Shown here: in pieces, positions 24,572 through 37,933 of the stretch
Numbering within the stretch: the stretch's first letter is position 1
Layout of the letters: each line of letters begins with the position of its first letter
Source: an uncultured Elusimicrobia bacterium
Lineage (GTDB): Bacteria; Elusimicrobiota; Elusimicrobia; Elusimicrobiales; Elusimicrobiaceae
DNA: 64,000 bases
Direction: 5' to 3'
Assembly (NCBI GenBank): GCA_945913025.1
Contig: CAMECJ010000001.1
Coordinates: 62,001 to 126,000 of the forward strand
The notes under the pieces: generated by a model
The model's database searches: none
Seen by the model: the letters and a program-made list of their open reading frames with translations, nothing else
Told to the model about the DNA's origin: nothing
Position numbers and translations under genes: made by a program

Positions 24572-24632
24572 GAATGACGTAAGAAGGTGCCGCTCGGAAA
24601 TGACGTAAGAAGCCTCCGCTCGGAAATGACGC
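24572..24632. repeat. Short tandem repeat, 26-bp period, ~2.3 copies
   Basis: GAATGACGTAAGAAGGTGCCGCTCGG / AAATGACGTAAGAAGCCTCCGCTCGG / AAATGACG. Confidence 0.8.
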
Positions 24633-24690: not shown

Positions 24691-25174
24691 TTAAAATCCC
24701 ATACTTTTGCATAACCCTGAAATTTTACTGCTACACTCCGTTTTGCCCGGATTTGCGGAATTGTCCAACCAAACAATATATTTGGAAATTGCCTGCTGAT
24801 CTAGTGGGGTGGTATTCATATTTTTGCCGTTGTCGGGAATACCGTGCGTATCCCAAAATACTAAATCGGCGTGTACATCAGCAAACATATCTACAGCAAA
24901 TTTATCGCACCATAACATATAACGCCCCCCCCCCGTCTGTACAGCCAGGATATTCAATATCCAATTCGCTCCAGTAGTTGGGATAATTCCCGTTAGCCAT
25001 ATAATACACTTCCATAGCGTCTTTGAGTGATTTTGCGGCAGTTTGCAACTGCGTAAACCGGCTTTTGGCTACGGCTTTTTGATATTGCGGTAATGCGACG
25101 GCGGATAATATGCCGATAATCAGTACAACAACCAATAATTCGATAAGGGTAAAGCCCTGTTTTGTGTATTGCAT
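24691..25174 (-). pseudogene. Type IV pilin-like gene interrupted by frameshift at a G10 tract (possible phase-variable gene)
   Basis: N-terminal part [35 protein letters not shown]...DIEYPGCTDGGG in one frame (ORF to 24902); continuation RYMLWCDKFAVDMFADVH...TECSSKISGLCKSMGF in the next frame (ORF 24691..24957). Break at plus-strand C10, 24925-24934. Confidence 0.85.
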
Positions 25175-25199: not shown

Positions 25200-25420
25200 G
25201 GAAAACACGATGCAAAAAACGGCCGTCCAGTGCCAAGGCTTATCAGGGCTTGACAAAAAACAGCCGTAGTTCCTTGCCATATAAAATGGCAAGGAACATT
25301 CGGCACAACGCAATCGGGTAATTAGTCCGTTTGCGTTGTGCCTAAAACGACCGTTTTTGGACCTGATAAGCTCTTTAGTTTCCTAAAGACCTCCTATTCT
25401 GCATAGGATTCCAAAAACAG
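25200..25420 (-). ncRNA. Structured pilin 5' leader RNA, copy 1 (unclassified)
   Basis: Upstream of pilin start 25174; pseudoknot-forming helices and hairpins conserved with compensatory changes relative to 37682-37883. Confidence 0.75.
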
Positions 25421-25497
25421 ATTAAATTGTAGTGTGCCTACGACTTAAACCTTTCTATAAAGGCTTCTTATTATATCATATTTGTATATAAAAAATA

Positions 25498-37144: not shown

Positions 37145-37636
37145 TCAGTAATGGGTATCCGTATAACCTTGGGAAGCCAGCGAAAGGCAAATATATTGCC
37201 AGCCTGTATTTCTCCGGCACGTGTATTTCCACTGTTCTTCTTCTAACGTATTCCATAACTGGTAGCTAAAATTATCGTTGGAGTGTAGGCGTGTAGCTAT
37301 AATATAACAGGTATTTGCAGAACAGAAAGCCTGATAGCGAAAATTTTTAGAAGAGCACCCCTCTGTTCCGGTCGGGCAGGAAAGGGCGTGTGTCAGATCT
37401 ATATCTAATTCATCCGTACTTCCGTCACCCAAAAAAGTTGTTCCGGTATAACCGTTCGCCAGTACGTAAGTTTCTACTGCCGTGCGCAAAGATGACATAA
37501 TCGTCAGGGCCTCGCTCATACGGCTTTTTTCTACCGCTTTTTCGTATTGCGGCAGCGCGACGGCCGCCAAAATGCCTATAATCAGTACCACAACTAATAA
37601 TTCGATAAGGGTAAACCCTCTCTTATTTTTTTGCAT
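37145..37636 (-). CDS. Type IV pilin-like protein
   Basis: [74 protein letters not shown] upstream of ATG. Confidence 0.92.
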   Translation of the reverse strand: MQKNKRGFTLIELLVVVLIIGILAAVALPQYEKAVEKSRMSEALTIMSSLRTAVETYVLANGYTGTTFLGDGSTDELDIDLTHALSCPTGTEGCSSKNFRYQAFCSANTCYIIATRLHSNDNFSYQLWNTLEEEQWKYTCRRNTGWQYICLSLASQGYTDTHY

Positions 37637-37681
37637 GACGTTCTCCTTGAGTCTCCGTTTTTGGAAAACACGCCGCAAAAA

Positions 37682-37883
37682 AAACGGCTGCAAAATGAGG
37701 GTCCAACCACGGTCCCGTCATCAAACAGCCGTAGTTCCTTGCCATAAATAATGGCAAGGAACATTCGGCAGAAGATACATTCGGGAGCTACCCGTTTATA
37801 TCTTCTGCCTAAACCAGCTGCTTTTGGACGTGGTTGGAATTTGGTTTCCCAAATACCCCTATTCTTCATAGGATTCCAAAAAC
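37682..37883 (-). ncRNA. Structured pilin 5' leader RNA, copy 2 (unclassified)
   Basis: Same architecture as 25200-25420 with compensatory substitutions in several stems; lies between LEA14-like gene and pilin start. Confidence 0.75.
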
Positions 37884-37933
37884 AGATAAATTTTTACCGT
37901 GTTATATACACGGGTCCTTCTTAAAAAATCCTC

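Follow-up and report, generated by a model that had tools for sequence, protein, structure and literature searches.

Two type IV pilin genes (PF07963) in the window, by which we mean the whole 64,000-nt stretch from an uncultured Elusimicrobia bacterium analysed here, are preceded by leaders with the same order of elements, which raises the question of what kind of element this is and what it does in front of these genes. An earlier note had described it as a pilin leader in two copies, whose stems had changed on both strands, and had read this as selected RNA structure rather than plain duplication. Both copies are on the minus strand, as are the pilin genes they precede, and therefore both have to be reverse-complemented, whereas the comparison suggested at the time turned only copy 1. 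The alignment of copy 1 with copy 2 spans the entire element and places the corresponding stems at homologous positions. Folded alone over 221 nt, copy 1 reached an MFE of -96.1 kcal/mol (z -9.9) and copy 2 one of -102 kcal/mol (z -9.3), and in neither case was any of 200 shuffles as good.

In copy 2, all features of which are on the minus strand, the leader opens with the 5' strand of helix P1 (CUGUUUUUGGA, 37875-37885), recognised from the sequence, the copy alignment and the covariation in A5, an alignment of 97 distinct copies. Hairpin P1a (CCUAUGAAGAAUAGG, 37858-37872) and hairpin P1b with its GAAA loop (37840-37853) follow, both supported by sequence, folding and A5 covariation, and then a copy-specific pseudoknot 5' strand (CCAACCACG, 37829-37837; sequence and pseudoknot test) and the P1 3' strand (UCCAAAAGCAG, 37818-37828). 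Next come the long hairpin P2 (37767-37809, with stem strands 37767-37777 and 37799-37809; sequence, folding and A5 covariation) and hairpin P3 (GUUCCUUGCCAU/AUGGCAAGGAAC, 37734-37762; sequence, pattern count and A5 covariation). The element ends in the terminator 5' strand (ACGGCUGUUU, 37723-37732), the pseudoknot 3' strand (CGUGGUUGG, 37703-37711; pseudoknot test) within the terminator loop, and the terminator 3' strand with its U-run (37677-37691; terminator motif scan), ahead of the pilin gene (37145-37636, PF07963 N_methyl). The strands previously drawn for the long-range helix, the P2 stem, the GAAA-capped hairpin and P3 all lie at these positions, while the terminator, its alternative pairing and the palindromic P2 loop had gone unreported. 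Two instances of the hairpin pattern TTCCTTGCCAT-N5-ATGGCAAGGAA are found in the window, with 0.00 expected.

Copy 1 (25220-25425, minus strand) carries the pseudoknot strands CUUAUCAGG/CCUGAUAAG, the P2 loop ACUAAUUAC and the terminator-like end ACGGCCGUUUUUU. Upstream of it, a -10-like TATAAT can be read at 25470-25475 on the same strand, and a promoter consensus scan found no full promoter. Its type IV pilin start (PF07963, 24902-25174, minus strand) is interrupted in frame after a run of ten G (C10 on the plus strand, 24925-24934), with coding continuing in another frame, possibly owing to slipped-strand phase variation or an assembly error; a tandem repeat (26-bp unit, 2.3 copies, 24573-24631) lies downstream of this pilin. 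As a feature of the family, G-run phase variation was rejected, a G/C run of at least 8 being found in only 1 of 97 downstream regions.

The 97 copies in A5 strongly support selection on RNA structure. Standard pairs are formed by 95.3% of 4708 helix cells, and double-sided changes occur at 45 of 50 pairs, with 785 cells changed on both sides against 198 (sd 13) in shuffled alignments and at most 175 when the partners were slid. A5 was fitted to the model and is therefore biased towards the model structure; folding that used no alignment gave z below -4 in 96 of the 97 copies (mean -8.2). Further copies that broke the proposed pairings would have refuted the claim, and overall no such pattern was found. 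In the outer half of P1, whose 3' strand is shared with a proposed antiterminator, the variation consists mostly of G-U changes, as is expected of a strand with two partners, and the inner pairs of P1 and the other helices show more double changes. Taken together, it is nearly certain that the leader is an RNA structure, and the comparison establishes, as a predicted fold, an architecture in which P1 encloses P1a and P1b and is followed by P2, P3 and a terminator-like hairpin with a U-run, with a pseudoknot of 9-11 bp.

The two copies in the window belong to a much larger set. A DNA search of the same genome returned 20 matches, or about 16 separate copies, and a covariance model (R1) built from 14 of the genome's copies found 24 matches at E<=1, representing 18 separate copies and 6 antisense shadows. 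Among 61 genomes (this one and 60 relatives, mostly gut or rumen bins of Elusimicrobiaceae or Elusimicrobiales), 33 were positive, all of the same genus, and one relative harbors at least 47 copies, so that the copy number per genome ranges from 0 to at least 47. Across the class, R1 was positive in 80 of 235 genomes, all Elusimicrobiaceae: genus g1 accounted for 62 (of 66 genomes) and genus g15 for 18 (of 18), and none of the family's 6 genomes in other genera and none of the 145 outside the family were positive. A second model (R2), built from 98 copies, identified 95 of 340 genomes in the phylum, namely 80 Elusimicrobiaceae, one genome of family f2 by a weak match (E 4.8e-4) and, with E values as low as 2e-37, 14 genomes in family f21. 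Family f21 looks like Endomicrobiaceae, as judged from 4.6-kb matches of 100% identity that link two of its genomes to named contigs of Endomicrobium sp. Kf353_bin60 and Candidatus Praeruminimicrobium purgamenti. In one Endomicrobiaceae genome (L235, 1266-1656), two diverged copies stand in tandem before an EcoRI-type methylase gene. All covariance-model searches were confined to the phylum Elusimicrobiota.

Outside these searches, one of 80 named contigs around pfp (isolate RGIG5124) has the RNA, in two copies, and the single exact pattern tried against viral contigs gave no match. With Rfam 15, only two tRNAs in the window passed the gathering threshold, permissive scans yielding matches far below gathering scores, and only tRNAs were found in 20 loci with copies. 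A literature search that lacked most subscription papers found none linking Elusimicrobiota pilins to such an RNA. This is a previously undescribed multicopy RNA family, absent from Rfam 15; with it, gut Elusimicrobiota gain a large and so far uncatalogued group of complex regulatory RNA.

Since the leader is repeated so variably, it might be asked whether it is instead an element of the DNA, such as a recombination site, the end of a mobile cassette or an invertible switch, the symmetry of which only mimics RNA structure. The range of copy numbers would suit such an element, as would the presence or absence of leader and pilin as a unit between close relatives: the unit adjoining pfp in the window is absent from one of them (L136, about 89% DNA identity). 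However, no target-site duplication was seen at this locus, the single empty site examined, and a mobile element was rejected on that ground; moreover, the orientation to the gene is fixed, and the compensatory stem changes with G-U pairs, the pseudoknot and the U-run all speak for RNA. We consider a DNA-level element very improbable.

With regard to the genes that the leader precedes, a pilin start lies within 450 nt on the same strand in 64 of 100 distinct hits. These hits comprise the top-scoring ones of each genome together with chosen regions and are not a random sample; 32 come from a single genome (G026), in which 31 copies stand before a pilin start and the remaining one ends near a contig edge. 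In the genome of the window, 12 of 18 copies precede pilins, out of 113 pilin-like matches, and with a leader at only about 12 of these, pilins as such do not need it. The name pilin leader therefore fits most of the sampled copies and is too narrow for the family, which also stands before outer-membrane proteins, glycan enzymes and DNA methylases. Among the non-pilin targets of family f1 (20 proteins scanned) were beta-barrel outer-membrane proteins, lipoproteins, glycosyltransferases, polysaccharide pyruvyl transferases, a rhamnan synthesis protein, a sulfatase and DNA methylases or a restriction gene, and several had no family. In family f21, a pilin motif was found within 900 nt in 17 of 50 copies, with two more pilin-like starts recognised by eye, and the other targets included glycosyltransferase family 8, Polysacc_synt_2, secreted proteins, EcoRI_methylase and another N6_N4_Mtase. 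The RNA thus accompanies cell-surface and DNA-modification genes in two families of the phylum.

The pilin families of these genomes are very large: pilin-start matches number 113 in the genome of the window (G000, 1.76 Mb), 145 in G026, 126 in G036 and 58 in G031. The RNA offers a way into the question of how bacteria with so many pilin-like matches (58 to 145 in these four genomes) may control them. At one locus (L007, from about 1693), the pilin start behind the leader breaks off shortly past the conserved N-terminus. In many f1 copies (L009, L010 and L015, for example), the sequence ahead of P1 takes a long form that adds an AGGAG and a further small hairpin; in place of this long form, most copies in G026 have a -10-like box immediately before P1. 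A leader peptide beginning at the AGGAG was rejected, no conserved start codon or frame being seen by eye.

Leaders in front of surface genes are known elsewhere: EAR (eps-associated RNA; Rfam epsC family) and ops/JUMPstart are structured or conserved leaders in surface polysaccharide operons. A processive antitermination site of the RfaH/LoaP type could accordingly be imagined, the targets (pili and surface polysaccharides) being like those of RfaH and the leader, structured and with a pseudoknot, being similar to EAR. Against this, nearly all of the 76 hit genomes (90 in the family) have one NusG-domain match, the exceptions being two matches in G085 and two partial ones in G101, and therefore no dedicated paralogue is seen. 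Neither the window nor the 20 loci matched any Rfam family of this kind, EAR included, and many of the targets are single short genes. We regard such a site as hardly tenable, and the candidate was rejected for want of a NusG paralogue.

The 3' part of the leader is suggestive of another mode of control. Downstream of P3, the order is ACGGCUGUU, the pseudoknot loop and AACAGCCGUUUUU; the 3' motif of the terminator is present in 96 of 97 copies, with 5-8 T among the next 9 nt, and 89 of 97 share one and the same 5' strand, CGGCUGUU. A standard terminator scan did not call this hairpin, because its loop is long (about 30 nt). The 5' strand has an alternative partner, formed by the end of the P1 3' strand and the three nucleotides that follow it (AACAG-YYG; in copy 2, 37818-37828 and the next nucleotides), with which all eight pairs are possible in 72 of 97 copies, seven in 23 and six in 2. 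In 81 of 97 copies, the three nucleotides beyond P1 are complementary to CGG, compared with 9 of 312 linker triplets, a null drawn from neighbouring linker sequence that may be conserved for other reasons. Where the terminator strand has changed from G to A (4 copies), the P1 strand has changed from C to U in 3 of the 4, against 7 of 93 otherwise (Fisher p 0.003). The covariation here is thin, resting on four variant copies, since the terminator strand is nearly invariant.

As for the energies, which omit the pseudoknot, the antiterminator is approximately isoenergetic (+0.4 kcal/mol on average) for a transcript ending at the terminator 5' strand and 5.7 kcal/mol worse once the terminator is complete, a balance expected of an attenuator, for which there are no termination data. 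As a sequence pattern, the competition of the P1 3' strand and its next three nucleotides for the terminator 5' strand is established, and it would define two mutually exclusive states. The leader meets what is asked of an attenuator, a terminator-like hairpin with a U-run before the gene and a possible antiterminator pairing, with regulated termination being inferred; that it switches is likely, in the absence of termination data. Beyond the terminator, a possible hairpin over the ribosome-binding site (in copy 2, GUUUUCC/GGAGAAC, 37640-37669, minus strand) is a feature of only a subset of copies: it reaches at least 9 bp in 18 of 75, against 5.5% of cross-copy pairings, the 22 of 97 copies without a recognised site being omitted. 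A helix between the P1 5' strand and the nucleotides ahead of the start codon (at least 11 bp in 15% of the 97, against 2% of control windows) was set aside as concerning a subset at best.

The long-range helix is a pseudoknot that joins the first (P1) domain to the loop of the terminator-like hairpin. In 92 of the 97 copies, a 15-nt segment preceding the P1 3' strand forms 9 bp or more with the terminator loop, compared with 1.35% of 9304 cross-copy pairings. Of the 93 copies reaching at least 8 bp, 88 sequences are distinct, and four copies fall short at this length; thus, the helix is kept while its sequence is free, and nearly every leader has its own pseudoknot sequence. This test replaced a first one (63 of 100 at 10 bp or more, against 280 of 9900), in which the segments were cruder and one antisense and one truncated hit were included. 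Because the segments of the second test were picked after the first result had been seen, the f21 copies, on which R2 had not been trained, carry particular weight: 42 of 48 pair over at least 9 bp, against 3.8% of 2248 cross-copy pairings, with 2 of the 50 copies left out for too little downstream sequence. In one of the four copies that fall short (L128, 256-422), the pseudoknot strands are mismatched to each other and each matches a different other copy, perhaps a recombinant or an assembly chimera.

The apical loop of P2 is the second unusual part. In copy 2 it comprises 9 nt (GGUAGCUCC, 37784-37792, minus strand) with the central palindrome AGCU. The sequence AACGG...CCCGA had been called invariant in this loop; the region is partly homologous, and the loops themselves, ACUAAUUAC in copy 1 and GGUAGCUCC in copy 2, belong to different palindrome classes. 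Across family f1, the loop has 9 nt in 92 of 97 copies, one class written with 10 nt in A5 being counted after trimming of an extra A. A 6-nt palindrome is present in 75 of 97 loops, against a shuffled mean of 8.5, in the forms UAAUUA, UCAUGA, UUAUAA, UUGCAA, UUCGAA, CUAUAG and one alternative register; the GATC and AGCT classes, with only four central pairs, do not meet the 6-nt criterion. Positions 4 and 7 are Watson-Crick complements in 89 of 92 loops (A-U 48, C-G 15, G-C 13, U-A 13; the 5 of 97 loops not of 9 nt omitted), and no other pair of positions tried behaved in this way, except the self-pairing 3:8 and 5:6. In f21, a 6-nt palindrome is found in 20 of 42 loops of 7-14 nt, against 3.4 shuffled (8 of 50 omitted), and positions 4 and 7 are Watson-Crick complements in 32 of 39 (11 of 50 omitted). 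To the contrary, seven 9-nt loops among the 50 f21 copies are non-palindromic (five GCTCGCTAC, two GCTCATTAC), and several divergent copies also count against it. As positions with only 2 nt between them cannot pair within the loop, symmetric pairing of two molecules is the simplest explanation; judged from the aligned loops, this covariation is easily explained only by intermolecular pairing, and it points to putative symmetric loop-loop (kissing) dimers, which remain unproven without binding data.

Such a loop is also what a free-standing, trans-acting homodimeric noncoding RNA would show, with its own promoter and terminator, co-duplicated with the pilins and leaving the gene to another promoter. 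This is the main rival, unlikely in our judgement and still a real possibility. The homo-oligomeric OLE and GOLLD RNAs offer a precedent for a signature of this type, apparent covariance having been reported between neighbouring nucleotides of their symmetrically kissing loops (PMC12286853), and the near-universal terminator motif and a -10-like box seen by eye about 20 nt before P1 in many copies would equally serve a separate transcript. However, in most of the 83 of 97 copies in which a ribosome-binding site was found, it and the start codon lie 26-60 nt past the terminator motif, leaving little room for another promoter, and the trans-acting RNA accounts neither for the unrelated downstream genes in two classes nor for the alternative pairing.

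We therefore favour, as the probable explanation, a lineage-specific 5' leader, multicopy and about 230 nt long, that works in cis to attenuate type IV pilin genes along with others for the cell surface or DNA modification, and can dimerise. In the inferred OFF state, P1, the pseudoknot and the terminator would form and RNA polymerase would stop before the gene; in the ON state, the P1 3' strand would pair with the terminator 5' strand as an antiterminator. Two RNAs would join by symmetric kissing of their P2 loops, possibly letting leader abundance or a bound factor bias the switch, the signal for which is unidentified. Cis attenuation by itself leaves the palindromic loop unexplained, and some loops are not palindromic; the cis attenuator and the trans-acting dimer may both be true.

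A ligand- or protein-sensing leader (a riboswitch or autoregulatory RNA), whose conserved junctions bind while the P2 loop only stabilises the fold, is a reading to which we give little credence. Besides the terminator 5' strand, the unpaired positions A141 (0.99) and A199 (1.00) are nearly invariant in A5, and the surface-gene targets would fit a second-messenger signal; nevertheless, a typical aptamer would have more conserved positions that are unpaired, no Rfam match was obtained, and sensing is compatible with the dimerising attenuator, to which it mainly adds a signal. An extension of the attenuator reading, distinctly unlikely as it stands, is that terminated leaders accumulate and use their class-specific P2 loops to pair with nascent leaders of their own class, deciding which pilin or surface genes are read through, while the pseudoknot keeps each fold private. 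If true, this network would be an RNA quorum or selector diversifying the cell surface.

Compared with known systems, the leader resembles terminator/antiterminator leaders (riboswitches and protein-controlled attenuators) in its gene-proximal terminator, the 5' strand of which has an upstream alternative partner, and in a pseudoknot to the expression platform; it differs in having no known aptamer, a copy-specific pseudoknot, a palindromic loop and, in front of a single gene family, dozens of copies in each genome. From EAR and ops/JUMPstart it is set apart by the lack of an Rfam match, its own terminator-like hairpin at the end and the absence of an RfaH-type NusG paralogue. The P2 loop is like that of the HIV-1 DIS, with 9 nt, 2 nt before and 1 nt after the palindrome. 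A 6-nt palindrome in a hairpin loop is common to both (PMC7357161, which also terms functional RNA oligomers rarely observed in nature); unlike the DIS, the present element is a bacterial leader with several 6-nt palindromes and 4-nt classes instead of one, flanks that are often pyrimidines and a dimer yet to be demonstrated. With the homo-oligomeric OLE, ROOL and GOLLD RNAs it would share symmetric pairing between loops whose adjacent nucleotides covary, as reported for OLE and GOLLD (PMC12286853), but it is a leader of about 230 nt tied to pilins, not a large noncoding RNA, and Rfam showed no relation to them in sequence. The RNA family is thus new, and its regulatory logic is of a type already known; two of its traits are unusual, namely the pseudoknot private to each leader and the palindromic loop with its covariation.
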